Shown piece by piece: positions 12,062 through 31,024 of a DNA stretch of 64,000 bases (within the stretch, counting starts at the first letter, position 1; each line of letters begins with the position of its first letter). This stretch comes from Bacteroidales bacterium (GTDB taxonomy: Bacteria; Bacteroidota; Bacteroidia; Bacteroidales; FEN-979), in NCBI GenBank assembly GCA_025355465.1, contig JANXZO010000044.1, positions 1-64,000 of the forward strand. Reading direction: 5' to 3'. The position numbers and the translations under genes are program-made. The notes under the pieces are model-generated. The model made no database searches and was not told the origin of the DNA. It worked only from the letters and a program-made list of their open reading frames with translations.

Positions 12062-12136
12062 GGTTGTTTGATTTAAAGCGGAAAAACAGATGAATTATTT
12101 AATCGGTTAAAGATAGGATAAAAATCTTCGCTTTTG

Positions 12137-12144
12137 CAAATATA
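12137..12144 (-). promoter_or_regulatory. Candidate -7 box upstream of the methyltransferase-kinase genes
   Basis: TATATTTG on the minus strand fits TAnnTTTG and lies in the 101-bp gap after the GT2 stop codon. A start near 12132 would give a 70-nt leader. No clear -33 TTTG at 19 nt. Confidence 0.35.
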
Positions 12145-12162
12145 TTTTCCTTAAACAGCTCA

Positions 12163-13344: not shown

Positions 13345-13398
13345 GAAAACATATTAAATCATTAAAGAACAGGTCTGAACACAGTCCAAAATGTCGCT

Positions 13399-14653: not shown

Positions 14654-14660
14654 GGCTATT

Positions 14661-15539
14661 TTATTCGTTAGGTTCTAAAAGATTGTCCTCCTTGTCTCTG
14701 TAGCCCTTTTTGGCCGGTGTAAAATAGATTTGAATCCGTTTCGACTCCTTGGCAATTTTTCGTCCTATCATTCCAAACAGGTTTCCCTGGTCATCAAGCG
14801 ACCGCGTGGTTGTCCAGATGCGCGACCTGCGGGTATTTATGAAGGCAATTTTTCCATGCTGGGTCAGGGCATAAGCCATGGAGCCATCTTCGCCTCTTTT
14901 GACTCTTGTATACCAGCCAATTTTCCGGCCCAGTTCCATGGGAATGCCAAAACTCCCGCCTCCAACACTTAGCTCCGGGCGGTTGATGCGACGCAGGATC
15001 AGTGAAAAGTCGCGGATTATTTCGTAAACAGCAAGTGTTAACCGCCCCTTGTTGTTTGTAGGAATGTAGGAATCTACGCTGTAAACCGCCGAAACACCCT
15101 CTTTTTCAAAAGCTTTGGCAAATTCAGAAGCCCATGTAGGTGGATACAGGCAATCTGCATCGGTACAAAGGTAATACTTGCCTTTCCCGAGGTCCATGGC
15201 CGCCTGACGGGCGTGACCGATGCCCTGGCTTGTAGCCAGAACCGAGAATGCACCACAACGATCGAGCAGTTCCTGGGTGCGGTCGGTTGAATTATTGTTG
15301 GAAACAATTACCCTGATGGGAAAAGCGGTCTCCTGTTCTGCCAGGGATGATAAGCAACTCAGGATATTTTTCTCCTCATTATATGCAATAACCCCGATGG
15401 TGAGGAAGGCATCTTCTGCCTTTTTATCTTTCAGGCCTGCTCGAATCCGTTCGAATACCTCCTCTGGAATGTCATCGATATTGTCGAATCGGACCAGGTT
15501 TCTTTTTACCCATTCTGGAACACGAAATTCTGGAATCAT
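14661..15539 (-). CDS. Glycosyltransferase family 2
   Basis: The 292-residue soluble protein has GT2 features: TIGVIAYNEEKNI, VSNNNSTDRTQELL, a metal site CTDADCLYP and GEDGSMAYALTQHGK. About 45 residues precede the catalytic fold, and no transmembrane helix is evident. It is in the middle of the polysaccharide locus between the hexapeptide acyltransferase and WbqC. It probably transfers a sugar from a nucleotide donor to the lipid-linked repeat unit; specificity cannot be called. Confidence 0.83.
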   Translation of the reverse strand: MIPEFRVPEWVKRNLVRFDNIDDIPEEVFERIRAGLKDKKAEDAFLTIGVIAYNEEKNILSCLSSLAEQETAFPIRVIVSNNNSTDRTQELLDRCGAFSVLATSQGIGHARQAAMDLGKGKYYLCTDADCLYPPTWASEFAKAFEKEGVSAVYSVDSYIPTNNKGRLTLAVYEIIRDFSLILRRINRPELSVGGGSFGIPMELGRKIGWYTRVKRGEDGSMAYALTQHGKIAFINTRRSRIWTTTRSLDDQGNLFGMIGRKIAKESKRIQIYFTPAKKGYRDKEDNLLEPNE

Positions 15540-15560
15540 TTGAAAAACAATTTATTAAAT

Positions 15561-16190
15561 TTATGATTTAACGACATTGACACGCTGCCATTGCTTCGTT
15601 GCCGGGTCATATTGTTTAACGATTTTTGCCGGGTTTCCGAGTGCAAGGGAATAGGGAGGGATGTTTTTGGTTACTACAGCACCTGCTGCAACAACACTGT
15701 GTTTGCCAACGGTGATTCCGGCAAGGACAACACAATTGGCACTCAGCCATACCTCATCTTCAATTACGACCGGAGCCGTAGAAACACCCTGTTTTGTAAT
15801 CGGCTTCGAAACATCTTCATAATTATGGTTTAAGCCGGCGATTACCACTCCCTGTGCAAGGATCACATCATTGCCGATCTTCACGGGCCCAATCAGCGTG
15901 CAGCCAAGACCAATCCGGGTGCGATCACCGATATAGATATCCCCAACGCCGTTATTGATCACCGTAAAATCTTCCACTGTTGAATTATCACCGAGGTAAA
16001 ACCTATTAAATGGTAATACGTCCATTCGTGTCCTCCTTCGGATCAGTGCATTTTTACCACGGTGGTGATAAAATGGATTTACAAACCATGTCACCCACAT
16101 TCTCGGTCTTGCCTGGTTTTTAGGCATAAGGAGCCACAAGGTAAGTTTTTTTAAACCCGGGTCTGATTTGATTTTTGAAACAATACTCAT
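15561..16190 (-). CDS. Left-handed beta-helix (hexapeptide) acyltransferase
   Basis: Hexapeptide repeats run from about residue 60 (LGDNSTVEDFTVI, IYIGDRTRIGLGCTLI, VKIGNDVILAQGVVI) to a WcaF/CatB-type end (VWLSANCVVLAGITVG, ALGNPAKIVKQY). The catalytic His is probably in GLNHNYEDV. Such enzymes O- or N-acetylate sugars of capsules and O-antigens. I chose the ATG at 16190 (MSIVSKIKSD, 209 residues). The longer reading from 16223 would overlap the upstream glycosyltransferase by 22 bp and adds 11 residues that do not look conserved. The role in the locus is decorating the polysaccharide repeat. Confidence 0.83.
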   Translation of the reverse strand: MSIVSKIKSDPGLKKLTLWLLMPKNQARPRMWVTWFVNPFYHHRGKNALIRRRTRMDVLPFNRFYLGDNSTVEDFTVINNGVGDIYIGDRTRIGLGCTLIGPVKIGNDVILAQGVVIAGLNHNYEDVSKPITKQGVSTAPVVIEDEVWLSANCVVLAGITVGKHSVVAAGAVVTKNIPPYSLALGNPAKIVKQYDPATKQWQRVNVVKS

Positions 16191-16201
16191 GTTTTCATAG
16201 T

Positions 16202-17413
16202 TTAGCGCTGCCGTTGTAAACAAATCTCCACCACTTTGCCTATTTCTTCGATATTGTTCTCCCAGGAATGCGTCATGGCATATTTTTGGCGAGATTCTGC
16301 CACGGCGGGAGAGTTCTCACTCAATGCGCGGAGGATCATAAGCCGGAACTCCTCTTCTTCAGAGGCAAGGTAAACATAATCTTTAAAGTACTCCATTGCA
16401 ATAGTTTTTGTGGCTACAACCGGTTTGCCCATAATCAGGTATTCATCTATTTTCCGGGGATAGTTACCAAGGGTAACCTCGTTAACAACCTGCGGATTTA
16501 TGGCCACATCAAAGAAATTGACATAGGATGGGAGTTCTGACTCCGTCTTCGGTCCGAGGAAAATTACATTGGGAAGAAGGTGAATTTTGCTGCTGAGGAA
16601 AGTGGCATCTTCCGGTCCGACAAGTAAAAATCCTATTTCGGGTAATCCTTTTGCAAGATAGATCAGAAGGTTTAGATCGATGCGCAAACTTCTTAGCACT
16701 CCAAGGTAACCGACGATCGATTTGAATTTACTTTTTAAGGCAATTACGCTTTCAGGCAAGGGCTTAACCTGAGAATGGTTAAATAGCGCGATGTCACATC
16801 CCTGTCCAACGAAATAGCAATGGGGAGAAAACTCCCTGGCATACTCCGCAAGTGACTCCGAGTTGGTAATTACGGCATTGGCCTTTTTGATTATTTGTGC
16901 CTCAATCCGTGTTCCTTGTTTTTTATAATAGTCGGTGGCTACTATATTATCACGGATATAATACAGAAAAAGTGAAGGCTTTATCAATTCAGGCAGGGAG
17001 AGACTCCGATAGAAATCACTGTCTGTTAAAAGAATAAAATTGCTGAATCCCAGATGTTTAATAGCCAGGTTAATTTGTGTCGCAAAGCGCCTGCCATTGA
17101 TCTTGTTCAGGAAATCAAAAATCAGGGAGGAATCTATCCGGTTTATCGACTCAAGGGTGGTTCCGGGCGTGAACACCCAAAGGTTTTCTTCGACCTTTTC
17201 AAGTTGCAACTCCCGCTTATGTTTAGCGTTCAGAAATGCCTTAACTTTTGGTTCGTTGCGTTGCCTGATAAGGGTGGCACGGTCGTAAGCGTAATTGACA
17301 AAAAGGACCCGGTTATTTTTTGCAAGTGTTCTCGCAATATTTGCAATATTGCTGCCGAGTTTGAAATTCCAGGATTGCAGTCCCGTAATTACGATATCCC
17401 AATTCTTTTGCAT
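16202..17413 (-). CDS. Glycosyltransferase (GT4-like), paralogue of the upstream gene
   Basis: The 403-residue protein opens with DIVITGLQSWNFKLGSN and ends with a GT-B type C-terminal half: IVGYLGVLRS, LLVGPEDATF, NVIFLGPK, DVAINPQ, PRKIDEYLIMGKPVVATKT. That is the nucleotide-sugar binding layout of family 4-like enzymes. It shares most blocks with the next gene upstream (17438-18628), so the two are tandem duplicates that have diverged, probably for two different linkages. The gap between them is 24 bp. It acts in the cytoplasm on the lipid-linked repeat unit. Confidence 0.82.
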   Translation of the reverse strand: MQKNWDIVITGLQSWNFKLGSNIANIARTLAKNNRVLFVNYAYDRATLIRQRNEPKVKAFLNAKHKRELQLEKVEENLWVFTPGTTLESINRIDSSLIFDFLNKINGRRFATQINLAIKHLGFSNFILLTDSDFYRSLSLPELIKPSLFLYYIRDNIVATDYYKKQGTRIEAQIIKKANAVITNSESLAEYAREFSPHCYFVGQGCDIALFNHSQVKPLPESVIALKSKFKSIVGYLGVLRSLRIDLNLLIYLAKGLPEIGFLLVGPEDATFLSSKIHLLPNVIFLGPKTESELPSYVNFFDVAINPQVVNEVTLGNYPRKIDEYLIMGKPVVATKTIAMEYFKDYVYLASEEEEFRLMILRALSENSPAVAESRQKYAMTHSWENNIEEIGKVVEICLQRQR

Positions 17414-17437
17414 CTTTTCTGGAGGTTAGTATCAACA

Positions 17438-18628
17438 CTACTTCTTCAATTCTAAGGCATGCCTGTATATTTTGCCAACAAATATCTCAAAACTATGGGA
17501 TTCAGCAATTTCATTTCTTCTTTCTTCCCAATCCGGACTGTTTTCGCGAAGCGCCAGTTCGATCAAGGTGACATATTCCTCATAATTTCCCGCCAGGTAG
17601 GTGATATCCTCGAAGTATGTCATAAATGCTGTTCTTGTTGCCACTACGGGTTTGCCCATTGCAAGATATTCATCGATTTTAAGCGGGTAATTAACATCGG
17701 TAATTGGATTGACAGCCTGCGGATTCAGCGCTACATCGAATGATTTAATATAGCCCGGAAGTGAGTTGGCGTTCTTTCTTCCCAAAAACAGCACGTTTGG
17801 CAAAGAATGCAGTTCCGAATGAATGAAATCCCGATCTTCCGGTCCTACCAAAACCAACATCCAGTCAGGCCTTGCTTTGGCAACATAAACCAATATCCCA
17901 ATGTCCAGTCTGATCGTTGTGAGTGTGCCAGTATATCCGATAACAGGCCGTCTGATCCCCTTAGCGTCATCAGGAATTACCAAAGTCTCATCATCATGAT
18001 AGAGCGACAGATCGCACCCCTGGCCGATCATAAAGGAGTTAGGGTTGTGTTTTCGTGCGAACTCGCAGAAAAAATCCGAGTTTGCGACTGCAAGATCAGC
18101 TTTGGCGATTAGTTTCGGTTCATGAATGGTGCCATGCTTCTGGTGATAATTCACCAGGGTCACAGCATCACGGAGAAGATAGATAAACAGGTCGGGTTTC
18201 AATAGCTCTTTCAAATAAAATCCGATGAGCATGCTGTTATCATCCAGAATTATAAAATTTTTAAACCCAAGTCGGCTTATGCCCCCACGAATTTTTGAAG
18301 CAAATCGCCGCTCATTAACTTTATTGAAAAAGTCGAATAACCAGGGAGAGTTGATCCAGTTTATCGATTCAAGTACCGTTTTTGGATAGAGGACCCACAG
18401 GGTAGGAGAGATCTGTACGAGGTCGGGTTCAAGTCCCTTGTTGATTCGAAGCCGTTTGGCTACCTCGGGTGTATTCTTTTTCTGAAGGACGAGTTTACGA
18501 TTAAGCGGTGGATTCACAAACAGGACCCTGTTCTTTTTCGATATTTCAATGGCGGTATACCGGCAGGTACTTCCCATGTTAATATCCCACGATTGTAATC
18601 CGAAAACAATAAAGTCCCTGTCTTCCAT
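17438..18628 (-). CDS. Glycosyltransferase (GT4-like), tandem paralogue
   Basis: The start is set at the ATG at 18628 (MEDRDFIVFGLQSWDINMG), which aligns with the start of its paralogue. The longer frame from 18694 would overlap the upstream gene by 56 bp. C-terminal GT-B blocks are PVIGYTGTLTTIRLD, VLVGPEDRDF, NVLFLGRK, DVALNPQAVNPI and PLKIDEYLAMGKPVVATRT. The roughly 396-residue length matches the paralogue. It is in the glycosyltransferase run of the polysaccharide locus and probably adds one sugar to the repeat unit. Confidence 0.82.
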   Translation of the reverse strand: MEDRDFIVFGLQSWDINMGSTCRYTAIEISKKNRVLFVNPPLNRKLVLQKKNTPEVAKRLRINKGLEPDLVQISPTLWVLYPKTVLESINWINSPWLFDFFNKVNERRFASKIRGGISRLGFKNFIILDDNSMLIGFYLKELLKPDLFIYLLRDAVTLVNYHQKHGTIHEPKLIAKADLAVANSDFFCEFARKHNPNSFMIGQGCDLSLYHDDETLVIPDDAKGIRRPVIGYTGTLTTIRLDIGILVYVAKARPDWMLVLVGPEDRDFIHSELHSLPNVLFLGRKNANSLPGYIKSFDVALNPQAVNPITDVNYPLKIDEYLAMGKPVVATRTAFMTYFEDITYLAGNYEEYVTLIELALRENSPDWEERRNEIAESHSFEIFVGKIYRHALELKK

Positions 18629-18638
18629 AAGTAATGAC

Positions 18639-19790
18639 TTAGCAATTCTTGTTATTTCCTGAATATAGTTCACGATATATCTCCAGATAGTCAAGGGCCA
18701 TTTTTCTCCAGGAGAATCTGGCCACCTGAAGAAACCCTTTTTCTCTCAGCGAGGCTCTTAGTTGTTGGTCCTGGAAAAGTCTACCCATGGCCGTTGCAAT
18801 ACTGGTTGGATCTTTTGGGTCGACCAGTAAAGCAGCATCGCCGGCTATTTCGGGCATGGCAAAAACATTCGATGTAATAACCGGGGCACCGCATGCCATG
18901 GCTTCGAGAATGGGAATTCCGAAGCTCTCAATAAATGACGGGTATAGGAACTGCAAACACATCGAGAAGATCGCCGGGAGATCAGGATTTTCAATATAAT
19001 CGAGCCGTACGATGTGCTTAAGCAAGGTTCCCAATCCTTCCGTATTCAGGATCTCATTTAGTCTTTCCTCAGGAAAGTCGGCAATTACCAGCGGTATCGG
19101 GACAGGAGATATTTTCAGAAATTCCGAATAGGCTATGAGTGCGCCACGGGTATTCTTCTTAGGATCTGTGTTGCCAAGCAAAAAAATAAACTGGTCTGGC
19201 AGGTTATATCTGGATTTGATACCGGCAAGCAGTTCCGGTGAGGTAACCGGTACAAAGCGCTTGCTGACTCCATTGCAGACTACTGAAAGCCGGTTGTTGC
19301 GGATGCCAAAGAAGTCAGCAATTCTAATCTTTTCAGAATTTGAAACAGTGATTATTTTTCTGCTTTTTTTTACAACCACAGGTACTACAAACCGGCGGTA
19401 CATATTTCCGAATTTCTGGTATGAAGTAAAGCCTTTTCTGAAAAGGCTGACGGTTTCCAGATAAAAAATGTCGTGCAGTGTGAGGATCAACGGAACCTTG
19501 CTAAACATTGGTCCGGTATTACTGGTGCAATGAAGCAGATCGCATCCATATTTCCTGGCGGCTTTGGGTAAAGCTAGCTGTTCCCATAAAGGATAGCTTC
19601 CTCCGTTGAGTTCGATGATCCGGAAGTTATCAGTAGAACTAAGGCATTTATCCGGGCCTGGGGCCACAAAAACATAATATTCATTTTCCTTATCAATAGC
19701 CATCAGGTTTTGCACGAGCTCAAGTGCCACGAAATCCATTCCATGCTTTTTACGACGAAATAACCTTTGTCCCTCTATTCCGATTTTCAT
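18639..19790 (-). CDS. Glycosyltransferase family 4
   Basis: The 383-residue GT-B enzyme begins with IGIEGQRLFRRKKHGMDF and has LLHCTSNTGP and LTLHDIFYLE in the acceptor half. The donor half has FIFLLGNTDPKKNT, the EX7E-type motif FIESFGIPILEAMACGAPVITS and ALLVDPKDPTSIA. This is typical of mannosyl- and rhamnosyl-transferase-like GT4 proteins in O-antigen loci. Its ATG overlaps the stop of the upstream GT2 gene by 4 bp. Donor sugar unknown. Confidence 0.85.
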   Translation of the reverse strand: MKIGIEGQRLFRRKKHGMDFVALELVQNLMAIDKENEYYVFVAPGPDKCLSSTDNFRIIELNGGSYPLWEQLALPKAARKYGCDLLHCTSNTGPMFSKVPLILTLHDIFYLETVSLFRKGFTSYQKFGNMYRRFVVPVVVKKSRKIITVSNSEKIRIADFFGIRNNRLSVVCNGVSKRFVPVTSPELLAGIKSRYNLPDQFIFLLGNTDPKKNTRGALIAYSEFLKISPVPIPLVIADFPEERLNEILNTEGLGTLLKHIVRLDYIENPDLPAIFSMCLQFLYPSFIESFGIPILEAMACGAPVITSNVFAMPEIAGDAALLVDPKDPTSIATAMGRLFQDQQLRASLREKGFLQVARFSWRKMALDYLEIYRELYSGNNKNC

Positions 19791-21007
19791 GGCTTGCCCT
19801 TCTTTTGCATGGTTTTGGAATTTCCTGTAGCGGAATGTTCGGTGTGAATGAACTTTTTGTTGGCTCCTTTTGTACTGAAGAGAGAAAAGAGCATCAGGAG
19901 GAAGCCTTTGGGCAGATCTGAAATTGCCTTGAGAGTCCGGGTGTTATAAAATTTACCGGGAACTGCAAAAAGTATTGCCATGATGCAAAGCAGGGTAAGT
20001 ATGAGCCAGGCCAGTGTATACAGTACCGGGTTGAAGAAAAGTGAAAGAACGGTTATCGCCGGCAGCAATCCAAGGAGCAACACCCGCGGGGGAAGAAGCA
20101 TCTGAAGCGACTTGTCGAAAAAGTCGATGTTTCCGTTAATAAATAAATGCCTCAAGGCTTCGAAAAAATATTGTGAGTAGTGAAGTTGTGCAGACAGCCA
20201 TCTTCTCCGTTGCTTAATAAACACTCCGGAAACCTGAACTTTCTCATCGAAAACATAGGCATTCCCAAGGTATTCAATCTTTATCCCTGCCTTGAGCATG
20301 GTCAGTTCAATCTCTTTATCGAACCCGCCGATTGCCTTAATGCCCTTCATGAGATTCTTGAAGTAAGTATAATCGAAGGCCATACCTGACCCAATAAGGC
20401 TTGATGACAGTCCAAGAATGCGATGCCCCTTTCTGAAGATATGGTTGTTAATTTCCTCACTGGCGGCATCGAGCAGGGCAAAGGAAGTATTGATGTTTTT
20501 GGCGATTCGGTGGCCTTGCACAGCGAATAATCCAGCGTTAAAGGCATTGTTGATAAGTGTCAGAAAATCCGTTGCCATGAGATTATCGGCATCCAGAACC
20601 ACCACAAGGTCATAATAGTTGTCGGGGAGCTGTGCCAACGCCATATTCAGGGCTTTGGATTTTGTACTCACCTCGAACGATACTTCGATCACTTTAACAG
20701 AAATTGATCGTAATACATTAAGTGTTTCAGGTTTAAAAGAATCTGCAATAACAATAACGTCAAATGCATCGGAGGGATAATCCTGTCTGGTAGCCTCCGT
20801 TACCGATTCGATGATAACCGAATCTTCCTTGTAACCCGGGATAAGCAAAGCAATTTTTTGAATCCTCTTAATATCAACATCTTTGGTTTCAAGTTTGAAC
20901 AGGCCGGCCAAAGAAAAGATGAATATATAGATGGTCCCGAATGCCAGGTAGCAGAAAAGAAGTATCTGTAAAACTGCCACGATTATTAATAGGAAGTCAA
21001 CAAACAT
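19787..21007 (-). CDS. Membrane glycosyltransferase family 2
   Basis: The 406-residue protein has an N-terminal hydrophobic segment (about 3-38), a GT2 domain (IALLIPGYKEDSVI, VVVLDADNLM metal site, KEIELTMLKAGI) and the KQRRRWLSAQ motif equivalent to QxxRW. It ends with at least two transmembrane helices (about 305-360) and a basic tail. This resembles processive BcsA/HasA-like or N-acetylglucosaminyl GT2 enzymes. A -7 box 41 bp upstream (21048-21055) suggests an internal promoter. It is followed with 4-bp overlap by the GT4 gene. Confidence 0.84.
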   Translation of the reverse strand: MFVDFLLIIVAVLQILLFCYLAFGTIYIFIFSLAGLFKLETKDVDIKRIQKIALLIPGYKEDSVIIESVTEATRQDYPSDAFDVIVIADSFKPETLNVLRSISVKVIEVSFEVSTKSKALNMALAQLPDNYYDLVVVLDADNLMATDFLTLINNAFNAGLFAVQGHRIAKNINTSFALLDAASEEINNHIFRKGHRILGLSSSLIGSGMAFDYTYFKNLMKGIKAIGGFDKEIELTMLKAGIKIEYLGNAYVFDEKVQVSGVFIKQRRRWLSAQLHYSQYFFEALRHLFINGNIDFFDKSLQMLLPPRVLLLGLLPAITVLSLFFNPVLYTLAWLILTLLCIMAILFAVPGKFYNTRTLKAISDLPKGFLLMLFSLFSTKGANKKFIHTEHSATGNSKTMQKKGKP

Positions 21008-21047
21008 GGTTCATTATTTTGGTTTGGTTCTGTCCTGAAGCAATTAA

Positions 21048-21055
21048 CAAATATA
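21048..21055 (-). promoter_or_regulatory. Candidate internal -7 box in the glycosyltransferase run
   Basis: Minus-strand TATATTTG in the 109-bp gap between two GT2 genes; a partial -33 (TTG) lies about 18 nt upstream. A start near 21043 gives a 36-nt leader for the 19787-21007 gene. Confidence 0.38.
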
Positions 21056-21116
21056 ATTATTTAACCTGATCGCCAACTCCTGCCGACCCTGAAAAGCGCC
21101 GGTTTAGCTATATTCT

Positions 21117-22082
21117 CTACAGGTAGGGATTGTTGTGAATTTCCTTGCTGAACAAGTTTTTCGTATGCCAACCCAATGCTCTGAAATAAGCGTAGAAGAG
21201 AGCTATTTTACCCATCAGCAAAAATTTAACTGCATTTTTAGGTATGGCAATCACGAGTTGGTAAAGAATTCCCACTAGAAAGTCACGGCCGAAAATATTG
21301 CGTCGCATGAATACCAGCCTGTTACGGTTCAGATAATAAATTTTCAGGGGACTCAGCTTTCCTGTAGAGACTGATTCCTTGTGATACACCAATGAATTGT
21401 GAACATACCAGATTTTATAGCCCGCTCTTTTAATTCTGAAGCTCCAGTCAGCTTCCTCATAATAAAGGAAGAATATATAAGACATCAATCCTATTTTTCT
21501 GATCACCTCCATCGGGACCAGCATGGCTGCTCCGTGGGCATAGGCAGTTTCGTAGTCTTTATCATATTTTCCGGTATCCTTTTCACGGTAGCCTATCGCA
21601 GCGTTCCTGACGGTGTATTTGTTAATGGGTAAAAATCCGGCATATTGAATGATGTCGGGGTCATAGTAGAAACGAATTTTCGGGCTTATGGCTCCAATGG
21701 AAGGGTCGGCAAGCATTTTTTCCACCATAGGTTCCAGGAAACCCGGGTCTACGATAGTGTCATTGTTAAGCAGCAATACATACTTGCCTCTGGCCCTCAT
21801 TATTCCCTGGTTGTTACCTCCTGCAAAGCCCCAGTTAACGTGGCTTGCGTAGAAGATCACATTGGGAAATCGACGTTTGATGATGCCAGGGTCATCGTTG
21901 GGAGATTTATTATCTACAATAATGACCTCGATATTGGGGTAGGTTATCTTGTTTAGCGACTCAATAAAATCACAGGTAACAGTGGGATGATCATAATTGA
22001 CCGCGACGATCGATACCAACGGGCACTCTTTCGATTTTGGCAGGGAAGTTTTACCCTTGTATAATGTATAGGTATCTGACAT
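21117..22082 (-). CDS. Glycosyltransferase family 2 (rhamnosyltransferase-like), tandem paralogue
   Basis: The 321-residue protein has SIVAVNYDHPTVTCDF, VIIVDNKSPNDD, the metal site LLNNDTIVDPGF and FLYYEEADWSFRIKRAGYKIWYV with VYHKESVSTG. These blocks are typical of WbbL/RfbN-type GT2 rhamnosyltransferases. It is about 60% alike by eye to the next gene upstream (22101-23039), sharing the same motif order to the C-terminus (NRxR..MRRN, GWHTKNLF). It lies 18 bp after that paralogue. Likely one of two deoxyhexose additions to the repeat unit; inference from family only. Confidence 0.83.
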   Translation of the reverse strand: MSDTYTLYKGKTSLPKSKECPLVSIVAVNYDHPTVTCDFIESLNKITYPNIEVIIVDNKSPNDDPGIIKRRFPNVIFYASHVNWGFAGGNNQGIMRARGKYVLLLNNDTIVDPGFLEPMVEKMLADPSIGAISPKIRFYYDPDIIQYAGFLPINKYTVRNAAIGYREKDTGKYDKDYETAYAHGAAMLVPMEVIRKIGLMSYIFFLYYEEADWSFRIKRAGYKIWYVHNSLVYHKESVSTGKLSPLKIYYLNRNRLVFMRRNIFGRDFLVGILYQLVIAIPKNAVKFLLMGKIALFYAYFRALGWHTKNLFSKEIHNNPYL

Positions 22083-22100
22083 TTGTATCCCCCCGGATAA

Positions 22101-23039
22101 CTATGTTTTGAGGTATGGGTGAGCGTAAATATTTTCGTTAAAAGCATTTTTTATATGCCACCAAAGAGCACGCAGATAAGCTTTAAGCAGGTCAAACCGA
22201 CCCTTTATCAGATATTGCGTAATATTTTTAGGAATGGCAATCAGGCATTGAAACAGAATGCTTATCAGGTAAGTAAACCCATATACATTCCTTCTCATAT
22301 ACAACCACCGACTACGGTTAAGATAATAGGTTTTCAACGGGCTCATTTTCCCGGTGGAGACTGATTCCTTGTGGTAAACCACAGAATTGTGAACAAAATA
22401 GATCTTATATCCTGCTTTTCGAAGCCTGAACCCCCAGTCAAGTTCTTCGTAATAAAGAAAAAATGCTGTCGACATAAGTCCGATGCTTTTAAGAGCCGTT
22501 CTGGATATCAGCATGGCTGCACCATGTGCATATGCTGTAATCGTATCGGTTTGATAACGACCGTCATCTTTCTCGGCAAAGCCAATTGATCTGCTACGTA
22601 TTGTATATGAGTTAATAGGGGTGAGTCCGGCATACTGAATGGTGTCGGGCGAATAATAATATTTGATTTTAGGACTCACTGCACCGATTTGCGGATCAGA
22701 CCTCATTTTATCGATCAGCGGCTCAAGAAATCCTTCTGATACCTCGGTATCATTGTTCAGCAGCAGAATAAAATCGCCATGAGCATGTTCTATACCCAGG
22801 TTATTGGCTCCGGCAAACCCAAGATTCTCACCCGCCTCTATCAGCAGAATCTGCGGATATTGTTCCTTGATAACACGTGCATTATCACCCGGAGCATGGT
22901 TGTCGACGACAATGACCTGGATGGACGGATAAGAAATTCTGAAAAGTGTAGCAAGCATGTCACAGGTAACTTCCGAATGGCCGTAATTAACAGTAACAAC
23001 GGATACAAGGGGGGAACTGTCGTTGGATGTATCTGTCAT
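22101..23039 (-). CDS. Glycosyltransferase family 2 (rhamnosyltransferase-like), tandem paralogue
   Basis: The 312-residue protein shows VSVVTVNYGHSEVTCDM, VIVVDNHAPGDN, LLNNDTEVSEGF and FLYYEELDWGFRLRKAGYKIYFV with VYHKESVSTGKMSPL. It is the close paralogue of the following gene. Its start overlaps the stop of the O-antigen polymerase-like gene by 4 bp, so translation is probably coupled. Function: transfer of a sugar, probably a deoxyhexose, to the polysaccharide repeat unit. Confidence 0.84.
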   Translation of the reverse strand: MTDTSNDSSPLVSVVTVNYGHSEVTCDMLATLFRISYPSIQVIVVDNHAPGDNARVIKEQYPQILLIEAGENLGFAGANNLGIEHAHGDFILLLNNDTEVSEGFLEPLIDKMRSDPQIGAVSPKIKYYYSPDTIQYAGLTPINSYTIRSRSIGFAEKDDGRYQTDTITAYAHGAAMLISRTALKSIGLMSTAFFLYYEELDWGFRLRKAGYKIYFVHNSVVYHKESVSTGKMSPLKTYYLNRSRWLYMRRNVYGFTYLISILFQCLIAIPKNITQYLIKGRFDLLKAYLRALWWHIKNAFNENIYAHPYLKT

Positions 23040-24508
23040 ACCTTAAGGGCCTTGGTTGTATCTAAAGATTCCTGTTCAAGTTCTTTGTCAAGATCCTCTC
23101 CCATAAATATGAACGCCATGCTTGTATATACCAGCAGACCTGTTGGCATCTGCCCGTAAACGCCATTACCATAACTGGTGACAATAATTCCAAGTACACC
23201 GCATAGCAGTGCGGTCAGCCTGAACCTCAGTTCACGGTTTCTGATCCTGAACATAACCAGGTATGACCCTTTTAATATTATGTAGGTAAGCAAAGCCAGA
23301 TGAATTGCCAATCCGACAAGACCTTGTTCCGCCCAGATCTCAACATACCAGCTATCGGTAGGGACGCTTGCAAGGAAGGTGCCGGGAGTAAACCTTGTAG
23401 CTTTGCCCCCTGCGTGACCCACCCCGCCACCGAATGGCCTTGTTGCCAGGTAGGGTCTCAATTTATTCTGATTTTCGAGTCTTGTTTGCAGCGATGCATT
23501 TTTTGGATCGAACGCAGTGCGCATGCGGTTTACAAAATAAATTCCCTGGCCAATATAGGTATATTTAAAAAAGCCGAATACGGCAACGCCGAGGACCATT
23601 CCGATTACCAGTGCTTTAAAATTCCGGATCAGTAAGAGATATAGCGGAAAAGCGCCGATCATAACACCCCATGCACCGCGGGTCCCTGAAAGAAACATCC
23701 CCCAGAAACAAAAGAATGCTGTGATCAGGCAAAATATTCTTTCGTTGCGTTTTGAAGTTGAGAGGCCAATAATCAGCGCTACCATGCCTGCATGTGCCTG
23801 TGACGATCCAAACTGTCCGGCATCCGTGAAAAATGAAAATGCGCGCAGCTGACCGAACAGTATATGTGTTGATCGTCCAACAGTGTCGAGCCAATACACT
23901 TCGTATGGATCTAATCCTATGTACAATTGAATCATTCCTTTGAAGGTGCCAAGGATTTCAACAGCAAACCATAAATAAAGGAAGTAAGTGAGATATTTAT
24001 TCTTGTTAAATAACAGAAAAACAAGAGTTACCGTTAAAAGCATGTAGAGGTGGGTTCTCATGAAATAAAACCATGCTGTTCTGCTTTGAACTTCCGGGTT
24101 GAAAAATTGCAGGATAATATATCCGTACCAGATCAGTGCCACATACGTGATGTCCTTATTTGCCTTTGACCACTCGATCCCTGAATAAAAATATTTAAAA
24201 AACAGCGCAATGTAGGTCAACACCAGAAAGAAGTCCACACCAAGTCCAAAAGGTGCTGCAAATACATAACGTGCCAACCCCAATGCAAAGAAGTTGGTGA
24301 TGTAAACGGCGAAAAAACTGACAACCGGGTTTCGGAAGGTTGAGATGAGAAACATGGCTGCAAAAGGTAATACAAGTAAGGCCGCCGCCGCCAATAATCC
24401 CATTTCTGCGATAAAGAAACCGGCACCCAGAATAGAAATAAGCAACAACACCATCACAGTAGGTTGGTTCAGTTTTTCTGTACCAGTGGGTGCATTGATG
24501 GGATTCAT
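23036..24508 (-). CDS. O-antigen ligase/polymerase family membrane protein (Wzy-like)
   Basis: The 490-residue protein is hydrophobic with roughly 11-12 predicted membrane helices and one long periplasmic loop (about 340-385) containing RPFGGGVGHAGGKATRF and VPTDSWYVEIWAEQG, the usual Wzy_C/O-antigen ligase pattern. FLSGTRGAW in the middle is another family hallmark. Such proteins polymerise or ligate undecaprenyl-linked repeat units on the periplasmic side. Its neighbours, a Wzx flippase directly upstream with 4-bp overlap and Wzc, support the polymerase role over the ligase role. Confidence 0.83.
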   Translation of the reverse strand: MNPINAPTGTEKLNQPTVMVLLLISILGAGFFIAEMGLLAAAALLVLPFAAMFLISTFRNPVVSFFAVYITNFFALGLARYVFAAPFGLGVDFFLVLTYIALFFKYFYSGIEWSKANKDITYVALIWYGYIILQFFNPEVQSRTAWFYFMRTHLYMLLTVTLVFLLFNKNKYLTYFLYLWFAVEILGTFKGMIQLYIGLDPYEVYWLDTVGRSTHILFGQLRAFSFFTDAGQFGSSQAHAGMVALIIGLSTSKRNERIFCLITAFFCFWGMFLSGTRGAWGVMIGAFPLYLLLIRNFKALVIGMVLGVAVFGFFKYTYIGQGIYFVNRMRTAFDPKNASLQTRLENQNKLRPYLATRPFGGGVGHAGGKATRFTPGTFLASVPTDSWYVEIWAEQGLVGLAIHLALLTYIILKGSYLVMFRIRNRELRFRLTALLCGVLGIIVTSYGNGVYGQMPTGLLVYTSMAFIFMGEDLDKELEQESLDTTKALKV

Positions 24509-25890
24509 CTGTTTTGGTACTTTAACTTAAGATTGGCAAATATATCGGTATAGAATTTCCATCCTTCGATGAAGACATATTTAAGTCGCAGCGGTATCTC
24601 CTTGTTAAGCAGGTAAAAACCGGTGGCTAACCCGATCATTTCAAAACCGATGGACCCGATGGAAACGCAGATAAGTATCGTCATGATGCTGAAGGCCGGG
24701 AACAGGGCATGGATGATAAAAACCGCGATGATATCTCCGACAATGTTAGCAGTCATCATAATGGTTGTCTTAAGAAAATTCTTATCAGGCTTATTAATGC
24801 TGTCCAGCCCGATACCTGTGAACCTGTCAATTGGCAGGAGTAGCGAGAAGATGATAAACATCTGCATTACAATTCCTAGTCCCACTGAATATTCTTTATA
24901 TTGGCTGCCCCCAAGCAATATCACAAAATCTCTGGCTACCAATGCACTGATAAGTCCGACAGGGATGAGTAGCAGTGTCAATGCACCGGAATAGGAGTAG
25001 AACACCTTCCTGAAAGCGTTGTGGTTACCTTCGATGCTGGCTTTAGACATTTTCGGAAATGCTGTTGCAGTAAAGCTTCGCAATACAATCTCCACGATCT
25101 CAGTGAATTTTATCGGGATACTGTAAAGTGCTACTCCTGTTGTTCCGAGGAATGGGCTGAAGCCGATGATGAAGGTGTCCGCACTCTTCAGGAGACTGCT
25201 GCCGATGGAAGTGCCCATCGAATATTTTCCATATTGAAGCGTGATTTTATTTACCTCGCGCGTTGCATGGAAAATGTATCGTGAGCCGTCCCAGTTATAG
25301 ATGGTGCAGACAATTGTCGTGATCAGGTTGGCGAGGATGTGAAAGATTATAATCCATTCCACGTTCATCCTGAAAAACACATAATTGAGGATCAGATAGA
25401 TTAAAAAGCTACCCATGAAAATACACCTGATCAGGAAGATTTTTCCGAATTTTTCATCAGCCTGAAGGATGGATAAGGCATTTCCCCAGGGAAGGTTTGA
25501 AAGGGCCAGAACAGGGTACCAGACGAAAAACAGATAGTAACCGGATTTGTGAATGTGACTGGGAAACAGGGCAAGTAAAGGATAGAGAATGAGGGAGATG
25601 AGCACGATACTGGCAAGTCCGATAAACCAGCTGGACCCGATGTATTTTTTCCGCTCTTGTCCTTCAGTCCCTGAAAGATAGCGTGTCAGCGCTACCCGGG
25701 TTACGCCAAATCTCATCAGATCGGCCAGGGTTGCAGCCGTGATGAACAACACCCATTCCCCGAACTGATCTGTGTTAATGCTTCTGACCAGGATTACGAA
25801 AGTGAGAAAGCCCAGTAAAGCACTAATGAAATTTCCGGCTAATGAGAGAAAGTTCTTTCCTTTCAGTATTTGTTTTAATGAGTTGTACAC
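24505..25890 (-). CDS. wzx: Polysaccharide flippase (Wzx-like, MATE/MOP superfamily)
   Basis: The 461-residue protein has about 12 transmembrane segments and the N-terminal pattern of oligosaccharide flippases (LAGNFISALLGFLTFVILVR, then FGEWVLFITAATLADLMRFG). The start is GTG at 25890 (MYNSLKQ). Wzx proteins flip undecaprenyl-diphosphate-linked repeat units across the inner membrane. It overlaps the polymerase gene by 4 bp and follows the Wzc gene by 19 bp, the classic wzc-wzx-wzy layout. Confidence 0.83.
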   Translation of the reverse strand: MYNSLKQILKGKNFLSLAGNFISALLGFLTFVILVRSINTDQFGEWVLFITAATLADLMRFGVTRVALTRYLSGTEGQERKKYIGSSWFIGLASIVLISLILYPLLALFPSHIHKSGYYLFFVWYPVLALSNLPWGNALSILQADEKFGKIFLIRCIFMGSFLIYLILNYVFFRMNVEWIIIFHILANLITTIVCTIYNWDGSRYIFHATREVNKITLQYGKYSMGTSIGSSLLKSADTFIIGFSPFLGTTGVALYSIPIKFTEIVEIVLRSFTATAFPKMSKASIEGNHNAFRKVFYSYSGALTLLLIPVGLISALVARDFVILLGGSQYKEYSVGLGIVMQMFIIFSLLLPIDRFTGIGLDSINKPDKNFLKTTIMMTANIVGDIIAVFIIHALFPAFSIMTILICVSIGSIGFEMIGLATGFYLLNKEIPLRLKYVFIEGWKFYTDIFANLKLKYQNR

Positions 25891-25909: not shown

Positions 25910-28591
25910 TTAAATACCATTTTTTTCCCTGAACTGAAACAAAAGAATATGTTTTAGCGACCTTCTGAAATTAGACCGCTGCTTTGGGACATCACCAAAG
26001 ACGGAATCGAGATATTCAAGTTCCACTCCGTTCAGAATGATCTGCGTATTCTGCTTTAAAACACCTCTGAAAGCATCGAGTGCGGCAACATCTGCATCGG
26101 TCCATGATCGGTTTGCTCTTACGACGAGCAATGCAAGATCGAAGTTTTTTATCAGCTCAATCGGGTAGGTATTGTTGATGAGTGAAGGAATCTCGACGAA
26201 AACATAATCATAGCTGTCTATGTCGAGATGCTCATAACCTGACATCAGGTTCCCTACACTTTTCGTCTCAAAGAAGTTGTCCCTGATCTCAAACTGGATC
26301 TCGTCATCAGTTGGCGGAACGAGTTCTCCAACACTCAGATAGGAAGAACTTTGCGATTGATCTTTGGCATAATTGAGATATAAAACATTCTCACCAAATG
26401 ACCTCAGTTTTCTGCATAATTCCCGTGCAATGGTAGTCTTCCCTTCAGCATCTCTGGTACTAAAGAATAACAGTTGAACAGGTTTTTTCTGTTGTTCATC
26501 ACCCATATGGAACAGCGCCAGTTTGATGTTCTGCGCCATTATTTCTACCAGTCGCGGAAGGATGAAGCCGATGTTGACGGCATAGATCTGCCTCACAATT
26601 TTGGGGTATACGCCTGCTACTTTAAGTTTGATAAACTGCTCAGCACGCTCGGCGGTTTTAATGGTCGTGTCGAAGTATTCCATCGCCAGGAGTATGGCAA
26701 GGATAAGAACAAAGCCAATGAGTGCAGCCATTAGTACCAACAGCATGAATTTTGAAGCCTGGGGTGTAAGTGGAAAATAGGGAGGGTCAACTACCTTAAT
26801 ATTTGTAGATAACTCATCGTCCTGTTGTCGCAATTTGGCCATATTCAGGTCATGCAACAAAGTAAGAAATTCTTCTTCGGTAACAGCGATCAGCCGTTCA
26901 ATCCTTTTTGTTTCGGCCCCCAGAGGAGCAAAGATTTCATAATAGCGAACAAACTGCTTTTTTCGGTCGGAGAGAACCCTCAATGCCGCTTTACACTCTT
27001 CAAATGCAATCACGTTGGCCAACCATGCGTTCAGCAGTTCTTTTGTTGGCAGCCCTTCAACGCTGTTGTTCACACGGTAAAGGTTGTCGATGTTGTACTT
27101 GATGTCTTTTTTAATGGCTTCCGCCCGGGTTTTGAGGGCAGACAACTGCAGTACCGTGGCAGAGTCATTGCGCATGTCGATTTCAATGTTTGCAACCTGC
27201 ATGGTAGTGGTGGCAAGTTCACCGCGCAACCTTATGATGGCACTTGTATTTACTGACAACTTAGCATGTTCTTCTAATTTTCTCTCCACCATTTTAATGG
27301 CGGCATCTGCAGAGGCGAAGGCAATCTGCCGGTTTTGATAAGCTACATCAAGTTCTTCCTTCTGGCCGGCAATGGCCTTGGTCTGTTCATAATAGTTGAT
27401 GATGTTATTACGCTCATTGAAATCGACCAGATCATTCTCGGCTTTTTGCAAACGGCGCATGGCATCTTCCAGTTGACGTTTAAAATAGGCGATTACAGCA
27501 TCCGTCTGGTTTTGTTTCAGTAATTTGTAATTGCGGATAAAAACTTTCGTCAAAAAAATCAATGTATTCTGACAAATTCCGGGATCCGGGTTTGTATAAT
27601 AAATGGTAAGAAGGTCACTGTTTTCATTTCGTATTGTTCCGGCATTGCTCAAGGCCTTAATACTATAGAACAGATCTTCGGAACTCCAGAGTTTATATAT
27701 GAAGTTGTAGTCATTCTGACGTGCATAATTGAGCAATCTTTTAACCGCCCGCTCAAAAGCAGTTGTTGTATCAGTATATTCCCGCATCGACTGTGAAATC
27801 GATTCCGTATTAATGTTATAAAAATCAACTTTGTTGGCGGAGTCAATGCTGGCCTGAATATTCACAGCGGGTGAGGGTTCCGGGTTGATCGTCGGGTCGG
27901 CAAGTTCGGCAGATTGTTTACTTTTTGTCCCATTGCCGATGGCCAGCCTCTGTCCGACTGAAATGGAATTGGAGGCAAGTCCGTTGAATTCTTTTAACCG
28001 CTGCACTGTCATCCCCAATTGTTTCGAAATCGAGAAAACTGTTTCTCCACGCTTAACGATGTAGAAGCTTTTTTCACTTTTATTTTGCGATGGTTGCTCT
28101 ACCGGTTGGTCGTAGGAGGTACGGGCATCCGGTTCCGTTTGGTAGGTTGTGTCGTTATAGGAGGTTTTTCGTGATGGTGGACGGTAATACCTTCTGTCGT
28201 TGCGTTTCTCTTTTCGTACGATGTCCATCACCTCTGCAGGCACTTTGGCCAGCAGATCCTCCCAGTTTTCTTTTGAAATATAGCGTGCATCGGGACGTTC
28301 AAGCATAAGGTGCTGCACAAGTAGTCTGACCGAGACTTCCTCAAGGGTCTGACGTGCCCTGATCAGGTTGATGAGATTATCAAATGCTGCGTTGTTGGCG
28401 GTAATGTCAATCCTGGCTTGTTGCTGAACTGAGTATCCGGACGTGATTCCGGTGTAGACCGTAGTTTCGGACCGGTAGTTCTTTTGCTTGTTCCTGGTCA
28501 GCAGAAAAACTGTTGCCGCCATGATTAGTGGAACCAAGATAAGCAATAGTATATGCCGTTGAAGAACTTTAAAAAAGTGAATAAGCTTCAT
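25910..28591 (-). CDS. Wzc-like chain-length/co-polymerase protein with an inserted LysM domain and degenerate kinase domain
   Basis: The 893-residue protein has an N-terminal Wzz transmembrane helix (about 14-32), a periplasmic region with coiled coils (about 340-560), a second helix (about 628-652) and a cytoplasmic P-loop domain (about 690-870). A LysM domain is inserted at about 176-219 (YIVKRGETVFSISKQL..VGQRLAIG), which would sit in the periplasm and could bind peptidoglycan or another GlcNAc polymer. The Walker A is STRDAEGKTT. The usual Walker B IDTPP is VFVEIPS, and the C-terminus (LFQFREKNGI) lacks a tyrosine cluster. Autokinase activity is therefore doubtful. It follows the TolC-like gene with a 1-bp overlap. 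Confidence 0.85.
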   Translation of the reverse strand: MKLIHFFKVLQRHILLLILVPLIMAATVFLLTRNKQKNYRSETTVYTGITSGYSVQQQARIDITANNAAFDNLINLIRARQTLEEVSVRLLVQHLMLERPDARYISKENWEDLLAKVPAEVMDIVRKEKRNDRRYYRPPSRKTSYNDTTYQTEPDARTSYDQPVEQPSQNKSEKSFYIVKRGETVFSISKQLGMTVQRLKEFNGLASNSISVGQRLAIGNGTKSKQSAELADPTINPEPSPAVNIQASIDSANKVDFYNINTESISQSMREYTDTTTAFERAVKRLLNYARQNDYNFIYKLWSSEDLFYSIKALSNAGTIRNENSDLLTIYYTNPDPGICQNTLIFLTKVFIRNYKLLKQNQTDAVIAYFKRQLEDAMRRLQKAENDLVDFNERNNIINYYEQTKAIAGQKEELDVAYQNRQIAFASADAAIKMVERKLEEHAKLSVNTSAIIRLRGELATTTMQVANIEIDMRNDSATVLQLSALKTRAEAIKKDIKYNIDNLYRVNNSVEGLPTKELLNAWLANVIAFEECKAALRVLSDRKKQFVRYYEIFAPLGAETKRIERLIAVTEEEFLTLLHDLNMAKLRQQDDELSTNIKVVDPPYFPLTPQASKFMLLVLMAALIGFVLILAILLAMEYFDTTIKTAERAEQFIKLKVAGVYPKIVRQIYAVNIGFILPRLVEIMAQNIKLALFHMGDEQQKKPVQLLFFSTRDAEGKTTIARELCRKLRSFGENVLYLNYAKDQSQSSSYLSVGELVPPTDDEIQFEIRDNFFETKSVGNLMSGYEHLDIDSYDYVFVEIPSLINNTYPIELIKNFDLALLVVRANRSWTDADVAALDAFRGVLKQNTQIILNGVELEYLDSVFGDVPKQRSNFRRSLKHILLFQFREKNGI

Positions 28592-29355
28592 TATTCAATT
28601 TTATTGATTACATTAAACCGAATACCTACGATTTCCTGGAGTATCATATACGCATTATAAAATTCGATGCGTGCCTGTTCAAAGTCGGTGACAGCCCTTC
28701 TGTTCATTTCGCTGATGGTAGCCAATTCATAAAGGGTCATCTGCCCATTGAGAAATTCCTTTTCTCCCATATCCTTTTGCAACTGCATGGAAATCGTATT
28801 GTCGTTGGCTATTTTTAGTACTTTCTGTGTGATGATAAGCTGGTTGTACTGCAGGATTATCGATTTTCTCAATTCAAGTGCTTGATTGTCTTTTGCGGCC
28901 ATTGCTTTTTCCATCTCTTTTTTGGCTGTTTTGATTCTATTCCCCCGATCCCAGAAGTAATCCATCGGTACCCGCATAGAGAGTCCGGCAACGGCATTGT
29001 TAACGTTTTGGTTTGTCAAAACTTTATTGACATCTCCGAGGTTGGTTTTATTTGTTGAAAGACCATCATAGATGTAGTTGCTAAAATTGGCATCAATATA
29101 AAAGTTTCTCATCCACTCCCTTTTTTGGGTTGTGATCTTGTATTTGTAAATGGAGATGTTGGCATCTGCCTCTTTCAGTAAAGGAGAATGGATCATGGCA
29201 GAGTCGATGAGATCCTGCAAAGGTGGTATGCGTTGGGTTATATCATCCAGAAGCGGGTTGAATGAGGTGGACCCATCAGTATCCTGACCCATTGAAATAA
29301 CAGGACCGGTTAGCGAGATCAGAAATAATAACCATATTAGGCCAAATACTTTCAT
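28591..29355 (-). CDS. Half-length TolC-like outer-membrane efflux protein
   Basis: The 254-residue protein has a signal peptide (about 1-23) and one TolC/OEP-like repeat: PPLQDLIDSAMIHSPLLKEADANI near the N-terminus, a beta-hairpin region (VAGLSMRVPMDYFWDRGNR) and a long helix pair with GQMTLYELATISEMNRRAV. Family members usually have about 420-480 residues with two such repeats. The frame is clean, with no adjacent remnant, so this looks like a genuine short form and not a truncation. It is in the polysaccharide export segment (1-bp overlap with the Wzc-like gene), where a Wza-type exporter would be expected. It may assemble as a six-copy channel; that is speculation. Confidence 0.72.
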   Translation of the reverse strand: MKVFGLIWLLFLISLTGPVISMGQDTDGSTSFNPLLDDITQRIPPLQDLIDSAMIHSPLLKEADANISIYKYKITTQKREWMRNFYIDANFSNYIYDGLSTNKTNLGDVNKVLTNQNVNNAVAGLSMRVPMDYFWDRGNRIKTAKKEMEKAMAAKDNQALELRKSIILQYNQLIITQKVLKIANDNTISMQLQKDMGEKEFLNGQMTLYELATISEMNRRAVTDFEQARIEFYNAYMILQEIVGIRFNVINKIE

Positions 29356-29386: not shown

Positions 29387-30619
29387 TCATACGTTTTCTT
29401 TTGCCACTATGGCGCTAAAAGTTCTGAAGATGATTTTCAGATCGCCGATAAAGGAATGATGTTCAGCGTAATAGTTGTCCAAGGCAAACCGTTCTTCTTC
29501 AGACATAATGGCGTTTCTTCCCCGTTTTTCAACCTGCCACAAACCGGTCAGTCCGGCCGGCGCACGGAAACGCCGGCTCCATCGTTTCTTTGTGAGGGCT
29601 TCAGCTTCATTCAACGGCAAGGGGCGGTTACCAACGATCGACATATCACCTTTGAGGATGTTGAATAATTGGGGCAGTTCGTCGATGCTTGTTCTCCTGA
29701 TAAACTTGCCAACTTTGGTGATACGCGGATCATCAACCACCTTAAGAAATGCCCTTTTTGCATTCCGGCGTTTGTTGGCAAGGTGTTCGCAGATTTCCTG
29801 ACCGTCTACATACACGATGGGTGAGCATTTTTGACCCGGGGGCAAAGCTCCGCATTCGGCGCACTCATCTTCGATGGGTTCATTAATGTACTGGTTCAGA
29901 TGCGCAACATCCTTAATGCGTTTATCTGCATCTGGACACATCGAACGGAATTTATAAAAATCAAATATTTTATAATTTGAGCCAACCCGTTTCGAGATGT
30001 AATAGACTTTGCCACGAGTTTCGAGCAAGATGGCAATAACGGTCAGCAACATGACCGGTGATAATAAAATCAGGGCAAAGATGGCTAACGTAATGTCAAA
30101 AAGTCTTTTGCCAGCAGGTATTCTGTAAGGAGTCATATCCTCATCCTGGTGTGCGTGCGGCTTCGGAACGTAGTTGGTTTTGAACTTTGTCAGGAATTGG
30201 AGCCTGCTGTATATGTTATCAATGTTTATGGAATTCTGATAGAAGTCATCTACCCCCATGCCATAGGCTTCTTCCTTGGCATCGATCAGTATTTGACGGG
30301 AGAGTATGATATAGGGGGTTTTCGGATGAATGTTATGTAATTTCAGCTTCCTGTGAAAAACGAGTGCATTGATCCCGGGAATGATGAATTCACTTACAAT
30401 CCCATCAAGTTGGTGCACCTCATTGTAGACGAAGTCAAACCGTGTATCCTGGTCCAGGTCAAATAACCGGAAAGAATTGCCGGTAAGCCAGTAGATCGCT
30501 TCAAGCCCGTTTGATACAACAGTTACTTCGAATAACCCGTGTTGTCTGAAAAGTGCAATGAGACTTTCGTCGTTGCCAATGTAAAGAATTTTCAGACATT
30601 CGGGAGAAGGGTCGGTCAT
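29387..30619 (-). CDS. Undecaprenyl-phosphate sugar transferase fused to a degenerate receiver domain
   Basis: Residues about 175-410 are a bacterial sugar transferase (WbaP/PglC/WcaJ type): one membrane helix region (GKRLFDITLAIFALILLSPV), FYKFRSMCPDAD, RRTSIDELPQLFNILKGDMSIVGNRPLP and GLTGLWQV. A Cys-containing insertion (about 245-275; C-x2-C-x8-C-x11-C) is typical of Bacteroidota members. Residues 1-150 resemble a response-regulator receiver (LKILYIGNDESL, VTVVSNGLEAIYWL, GVDDFYQNS). The acidic pair is GN, the phospho-Asp position is Ser-Glu and the conserved Lys is Asn, so it cannot be phosphorylated in the usual way. It initiates repeat-unit synthesis on undecaprenyl phosphate and is 6 bp from the stand-alone receiver. 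Confidence 0.86.
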   Translation of the reverse strand: MTDPSPECLKILYIGNDESLIALFRQHGLFEVTVVSNGLEAIYWLTGNSFRLFDLDQDTRFDFVYNEVHQLDGIVSEFIIPGINALVFHRKLKLHNIHPKTPYIILSRQILIDAKEEAYGMGVDDFYQNSINIDNIYSRLQFLTKFKTNYVPKPHAHQDEDMTPYRIPAGKRLFDITLAIFALILLSPVMLLTVIAILLETRGKVYYISKRVGSNYKIFDFYKFRSMCPDADKRIKDVAHLNQYINEPIEDECAECGALPPGQKCSPIVYVDGQEICEHLANKRRNAKRAFLKVVDDPRITKVGKFIRRTSIDELPQLFNILKGDMSIVGNRPLPLNEAEALTKKRWSRRFRAPAGLTGLWQVEKRGRNAIMSEEERFALDNYYAEHHSFIGDLKIIFRTFSAIVAKENV

Positions 30620-30625
30620 AAATGC

Positions 30626-31024
30626 CTAATTTCCGGTACGTTGTTTGTAAAGTTCTTTCGATTCTGTTCTTCGTTTGATCCGGACAATGAGTTCTTTGGG
30701 ATTAAATGGTTTCAGTAGATAGTCGTCAGCCCCCATCTCGAAACATTTGATTTTATCTGCACTTTCTTCTTTCCCGGAAAGCATGATCAACGGAATATCC
30801 TCGAAAAATCCACTTTCCCTGATTCTCCTGATAAATTCGAACCCGTTCATCACAGGCATTTCAACATCACAGATAATTACATCCGGGAGATTGCCTGACT
30901 GAAGATAAAACAGCGCATCCATGCCGTTACTCATCGTCGTAACTTCAAAGTCTTTATTGAAGGTATTTTCGATGATAAAACGGATACTCTTTTCATCGTC
31001 AATGGCGAGTATCTTTTTTTTCAT
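30626..31024 (-). CDS. CheY-like single-domain response regulator
   Basis: The 132-residue protein is a complete receiver domain: AIDDE with Asp9 and Asp10, phospho-acceptor Asp53 in IICDVEMP, Ser in MLSGKEE and Lys in LLKPFNPKEL. No output domain is attached. It is the first gene of the polysaccharide locus, immediately upstream of the sugar transferase whose N-terminal pseudo-receiver looks like a diverged copy of it. Likely phospho-donors are the two hybrid kinases at the far end of the locus; this is inference. Confidence 0.88.
   Translation of the reverse strand: MKKKILAIDDEKSIRFIIENTFNKDFEVTTMSNGMDALFYLQSGNLPDVIICDVEMPVMNGFEFIRRIRESGFFEDIPLIMLSGKEESADKIKCFEMGADDYLLKPFNPKELIVRIKRRTESKELYKQRTGN

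Follow-up and report, generated by a model that had tools for sequence, protein, structure and literature searches.

A putative two-component switch on polysaccharide initiation: a live receiver beside a phosphoglycosyl transferase that carries its dead paralogue

The window, that is, the whole stretch of 64,000 nucleotides analyzed here, encodes a phosphorylatable-looking stand-alone receiver directly upstream of a protein in which a receiver without its phosphorylation site is fused to the phosphoglycosyl transferase (PGT) predicted to initiate synthesis of an exported polysaccharide. Our best reading of this pair, to which we give a probability of roughly 55%, is a two-component switch that acts on the first step of that synthesis through pairing of a live with a dead receiver. 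In this reading, the stand-alone receiver would be phosphorylated by the cluster's two hybrid kinases (or by other kinases) and would then bind its dead paralogue at the N-terminus of the initiating PGT; this live/dead pairing would alter PGT activity, most likely upward, activation being preferred to inhibition because of what is known of EpsW and EpsZ in Myxococcus xanthus. We give even odds to the evolutionary scenario in which duplication of the receiver turned a homodimer into an obligate two-gene live/dead heterodimer on an initiating PGT, with the first committed step as its output, and in which this arrangement was kept from Prevotella to Spirosoma.

The gene pair and its polysaccharide cluster

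The receiver gene is the upstream member of the pair, and 6 nt separate its stop codon from the ATG of the PGT gene, which is in the same frame (Table 1); the preliminary description had the coordinates and strands of both genes exactly right. Upstream of the receiver gene lies a gene that we take, from its translation, to be uvrB. Response_reg was the one Pfam family matched by the stand-alone receiver. With a receiver fold in the model, no output domain, and all five site residues intact in the alignment (D9 D10, D53, S83, and K105, or DDDSK, as had been claimed for it), this protein is a single-domain response regulator. All five site residues were retained in 95 of 97 partner receivers in the alignment, a count of nonindependent sequences in that some 30 Prevotella-type partners are nearly identical. 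The signature KPFNP, which the window's stand-alone receiver carries, was present in 92 of 94 partners (the partners at loci L056, L057, and L064 being excluded from this count) versus a single one of the 70 other receivers in the genome of the window. The partner at L142 also lacks the Asp at the site (DEESK), and the partner at L064, which adjoins a PGT without an N-terminal domain, has a degenerate site (ENGTK).

The N-terminus of the PGT gave a subthreshold Pfam match to Response_reg (3.1e-4, residues 69 to 140), and a receiver was detected at this position by Pfam in 13 of 26 members of the family alignment at E values of up to 0.01. In the AlphaFold model, this region forms a complete (beta-alpha)5 receiver fold from strand 1 to helix 5, with pLDDT values mostly of 90 to 97 except in a loop insert (residues 65 to 82) and at the C-terminal edge. 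The site residues in the alignment are G-N, E, S, and N (by hand numbering, G15 N16 at the acidic pair, E77 at the position of the Asp, and N129 at that of the Lys). None of 95 homologues of the domain in the alignment kept all five site residues, and 75 of the 95 have Glu in place of the Asp. The domain is thus a pseudo-receiver, a receiver fold that lacks the residues required for phosphotransfer, as had been proposed from the translation, and the blocks said to be shared by the two receivers (VTTMSNGMDALFYL versus VTVVSNGLEAIYWL) are both present in the translations.

The catalytic domain matches the solved structures of PglC and WbaP, with the motif of the re-entrant helix (D175-x12-P188) and the catalytic dyad (D313-E314) in place. 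Residues D175, P188, K223, R308, and D313-E314 align with D11, P24, K59, R88, and D93-E94 of PglC, when the residue list in the available text of PMC12802240 is mapped by hand onto the deposited PglC chain, whose numbering is offset by 4. By the definition in the same text, a Bac_transf domain with D-x12-P, K, R, and the DE dyad and without an N-terminal transmembrane (TM) bundle plus DUF makes this enzyme a small monotopic PGT. The catalytic domain also contains a four-cysteine insert, which corresponds to a gap in PglC and WbaP in the alignment and is possibly a metal or redox site. The cysteine pattern was found in 33 of 91 homologue rows (the window being counted twice), its carriers being the family of the window, Spirosoma, Larkinella, Mucilaginibacter, Chitinophaga, and Aureispira; the PGTs of Bacteroides and Prevotella have an acidic insert in its place.

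Table 1. Features of the receiver/PGT pair and of the polysaccharide cluster in the window
Feature	Position	Strand	Basis or remark
Live single-domain receiver (CheY-like), 132 aa	30626-31024	-	Pfam Response_reg (PF00072), 6.8e-29
Pseudo-receiver fused to small monotopic PGT, 410 aa	29387-30619	-	Pfam and AlphaFold
Pseudo-receiver domain, PGT residues 9-149	30173-30595	-	AlphaFold fold and alignment
PGT catalytic domain (Bac_transf)	29405-30109	-	Bac_transf 1e-58 (Pfam); PglC alignment
Four-cysteine stretch, C253, C256, C265, C277 (hand numbering)	29789-29863	-	Insert inside the catalytic domain
Short outer-membrane-efflux (OEP) protein, half the size of TolC, one OEP match	28591-29355	-	Pfam; next after the PGT
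Wzz/BY-kinase-like co-polymerase with LysM domain	25910-28591	-	Pfam
Wzx-like flippase (Polysacc_synt_3)	24505-25890	-	Pfam
Wzy-like polymerase (Wzy_C, O-antigen ligase family)	23036-24508	-	Pfam
Glycosyltransferases and modifying enzymes, close-packed	11255-23039	-	Names read from translations
Hybrid histidine kinase 2 (HisKA-HATPase-receiver)	9835-11250	-	Pfam
Hybrid histidine kinase 1 (HisKA-HATPase-receiver), last of the close-packed run	8535-9833	-	Pfam

The pair heads a close-packed run of genes on the same strand, from 31024 down to 8535, with no gap larger than 109 bases; past the kinases, 414 bases separate the run from the next gene. The genome's one match to Poly_export (Wza-type) sits on another contig, and the short OEP protein may provide the exit through the outer membrane for this pathway. 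Through its LysM domain, the co-polymerase could link the export machinery to peptidoglycan; the three co-polymerase counterparts scanned (L016, L035, and L059) gave no match to LysM. In all of eight relatives, picked by hand for the length of their contigs, the same two hybrid kinases occur further down on the same strand, as in the window, and the OEP and co-polymerase genes come after the receiver/PGT pair. Among 60 more distant loci with longer flanks, scanning with the kinases of the window found a similar kinase in 7, in some cases on the opposite strand, downstream, or next to a PGT that lacks the N-terminal domain, and Pfam revealed an eighth at L053; this argues against a kinase beside the pair as a general rule. 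Elsewhere in the window, the cluster at 41107 to 63031 resembles, judged from its translations, aryl-polyene/flexirubin pigment clusters; among its members are radical-SAM-like genes, an aromatic ammonia-lyase-like gene, and a gene for a 1289-aa fusion of exporter, acyltransferase, and methyltransferase.

Origin of the two receivers and models of their pairing

The relatedness of the two receivers was assessed against 71 distinct receiver domains extracted with their flanks from the window's genome (77 matches listed, 70 used, and 7 weak ones left out). The dead receiver scored highest with its partner (Smith-Waterman score of 92, rank 1 of 71), the runner-up reaching 69 and the background having a mean of 39 and a standard deviation of 13; the similarity to the partner was therefore higher than that to the genome's other receivers. 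A tree was built from 16 pairs of dead and live receivers together with 70 background receivers; the dead and live ones grouped together apart from the background (support of 98/93), the 16 pairs having been chosen by hand among the more receiver-like ones, without Bacteroides and Prevotella, and the background coming from one genome. The dead receivers formed one clade (98/92); the live receivers did not form a single clade, two changes being needed for that. A comparison of profiles matched dead to live receivers with a probability of 99.8 and an E value of 4e-28. Chance similarity or an artefact is excluded by the ranking within the genome, the tree, and the profiles. Since the dead receivers fall in one clade and form a joint group with the live ones, the receiver gene was probably duplicated once, early, after which one copy would have become part of the PGT and its site would have been lost.

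When other lineages were ranked against the receivers of the window's genome as background, the partner came first in 21 of 59 nonredundant pairs, and in Bacteroides, Prevotella, Parabacteroides, and their kin it ranked between 5th and 63rd of 71. The N-terminal domains of the Bacteroides/Prevotella type still matched those of the window's group by profile (probability of 96.9, E value of 2e-10), and they matched live receivers weakly (probability of 82.5). Judged by these comparisons, the dead receiver of Bacteroides, Prevotella, and kin is strongly drifted.

The heterodimer was modeled with AlphaFold as one fused chain of receiver and pseudo-receiver, in which the stop codon was read as Gly and the true pair alone was used; with 30 paired rows in the alignment, the model reached a pTM of 0.85 and a pLDDT of 88.8, and such a pTM is high for a prediction of two domains of similar size. 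A full-length run reached a pTM of 0.58 with a flawed alignment, in which the pseudo-receivers of 23 PGT-only rows were aligned to the live receiver, so that its result on the arrangement of the domains is weak. PleD was the best multidomain PDB match for the model, and the two did not superpose (rmsd of 13 to 15 A over some 295 columns), which rules out a PleD-like domain arrangement for the model. In the VIA-align list the live receiver fills almost all rows, so this list bears on the single receiver.

Pairing across Bacteroidota and alternative readings

Conservation of the gene pair was assessed in a set of homologues from 80 genome contigs and relatives, which yielded 91 PGT rows at 150 bits or more, or 90 distinct loci; the window is present twice in this set (its copy, L001, was left out as a row), and one locus with masked runs of N was left out. 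A receiver gene was directly upstream in 84 of the 91 rows, or 83 of the 90 distinct loci. Of the seven misses, four are contig edges (L044, L063, L101, and L103); at L065 the PGT frame is apparently broken and a receiver open reading frame (ORF) lies 433 bases up, at L113 the receiver is inside a 405-aa ORF 150 bases up, and at L062 the PGT has no N-terminal domain and a receiver ORF lies 2.5 kb up.

Because these homologues had been picked by their similarity to the window, a sample of 296 genomes was also drawn from the phylum; the best six candidates per genome were scored, and 24 genomes, the window's included, had a match at 1e-70. With the window set aside, a receiver gene was upstream on the same strand in 15 of 15 copies of the PGT with the N-terminal domain (13 genomes), and in 14 of these the open frames overlap or lie within 40 nt of each other, the remaining pair being 220 nt apart. 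The same pair, for which a search in other Bacteroidota had been proposed, was thus recovered in at least 13 of the sample's other 295 genomes at the 1e-70 threshold, and the module is spread over Bacteroidota but patchy; in this sample, no copy of the fusion was found without an adjacent CheY-like gene.

PGTs without the N-terminal domain had an adjacent receiver in 4 of 10 cases in the same sample, versus 15 of 15 with it (one-sided hypergeometric P of about 0.001, calculated by hand). No receiver ORF was found within 1.5 kb at 30 other Bac_transf loci, drawn from the phylum by family. As these control loci are the best Bac_transf match of each genome and mostly large PGTs, the ten small relatives without the domain are the stricter control. 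Coincidence in receiver-rich clusters is disfavored by the 30 loci, with 4 of 10 in the stricter control.

The four adjacent receivers count against any strict requirement for the dead receiver. KPFNP is present in all four and also in the partners at L056, L057, and L064, where the PGT likewise has no such domain. The four suggest that the tie between receiver and PGT may be older than the pseudo-receiver or independent of it, and that the receiver may act on the catalytic domain. The live receiver could accordingly control the PGT through that domain, with the pseudo-receiver serving only dimerization or folding of the PGT, and the available text of PMC12802240 has EpsW modeled in contact with the catalytic domain of EpsZ as well as with its DUF. 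We consider this explanation unlikely but a serious one, given the difference in pairing between PGTs with and without the N-terminal domain, the paralogy of that domain to the partner, and the pTM that the two receivers reach as a chain on their own.

At L130, L131, and L135, a PGT without the domain lies behind a KPFNP receiver, itself behind a longer receiver-bearing ORF that is cut by the end of the locus; this ORF is perhaps a hybrid kinase, and the arrangement may be an alternative stage of the same system. On an Anaerolineae contig (L068, positions 5863 to 6915), a phosphorylatable-looking receiver is fused in cis to the PGT. This fusion would be a one-gene version of such control of a PGT, and we count it in favor of the proposed switch.

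Another possibility, which we hold to be rather improbable, is that the pseudo-receiver is a decoy for the kinase or a competitor of the receiver, and that the target of signaling is another protein, such as the co-polymerase, and not the PGT. Such roles of pseudo-receivers are discussed in the available text of PMC12632262, and in the window, as well as in loci of Prevotella, Bacteroides, and Aureispira, the genes for the receiver, the PGT, and the OEP protein are neighbors of one another and of a long gene of co-polymerase type; however, the order of receiver and then PGT holds where the following genes differ, as in Larkinella (L009), where glycosyltransferases come next. That the two genes are merely cotranscribed neighbors without physical interaction we regard as very improbable in view of the invariant pairing in the phylum sample, the common origin, the excess conservation of the partner, and the empty control loci, even though the interaction is a prediction from sequence and model.

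The switch acting through live/dead pairing therefore stands in part as first described, that is, as a phosphorylation-dependent heterodimer controlling the PGT. That receiver and PGT are a working pair is supported by the common origin, the conservation of KPFNP, the kinases in the cluster, and the model of the fused chain; we infer their binding, its dependence on phosphorylation, the effect on the enzyme and its direction, and the identity of the kinase that feeds the receiver.

Known systems and significance

In M. xanthus, phosphorylated EpsW stimulates EpsZ (Schwabe et al. 2025, PMC12802240, available text). As would be the case here, a single-domain response regulator is reported there to act posttranslationally on the PGT that starts a Wzx/Wzy polysaccharide, and a contact between receiver and PGT is proposed. 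EpsZ, however, is described as a large monoPGT in which a TM bundle is combined with a DUF lacking the beta-hairpin, an architecture not found in the window PGT by Pfam or AlphaFold; the latter is small and carries a pseudo-receiver paralogous to its partner, followed by Bac_transf. The discussion of that paper mentions, with reference to O'Toole et al. 2021, that receiver domains may occur in small monoPGTs, and a word search of its main text, as available, did not find "Bacteroid".

Of the systems in the available text of a 2025 perspective on pseudo-receivers (PMC12632262), PleD of Caulobacter (receiver, pseudo-receiver, and diguanylate cyclase) is similar in that control of its enzyme is shared by a live receiver and a pseudo-receiver. 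It differs in being one polypeptide, with another enzyme and a different modeled arrangement of domains, whereas the live receiver is encoded by a separate gene in the window and at the loci where a partner was found. In BldM/WhiI and CmrR/CmrT, too, an atypical response regulator has, or is proposed to have, a second response regulator as its partner, but these pairs regulate gene expression and are not enzyme fusions (PMC12632262). Heterodimers with live receivers are listed as a possibility for pseudo-receivers in the same text, which calls the switching on and off of bacterial pseudo-receivers a mystery. Among the matches listed from the open-licence literature, no description of the Bacteroidota pair was found. 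Control of PGTs by a response regulator has thus already been reported in Myxococcus, and a pair of live receiver and pseudo-receiver on a small PGT would, on the present comparisons, be a new form of it.

The module is a natural and repeated case of a pseudo-receiver whose likely partner is encoded by the adjacent gene, whose read-out is enzymatic, and for which the cluster supplies candidate kinases. If the proposed pairing is true, it would answer, for one family, the question of what activates a bacterial pseudo-receiver. It would also extend control of PGTs by response regulators to small PGTs in Bacteroidota, gut genera included, and would bear on the timing of surface polysaccharides in these bacteria.
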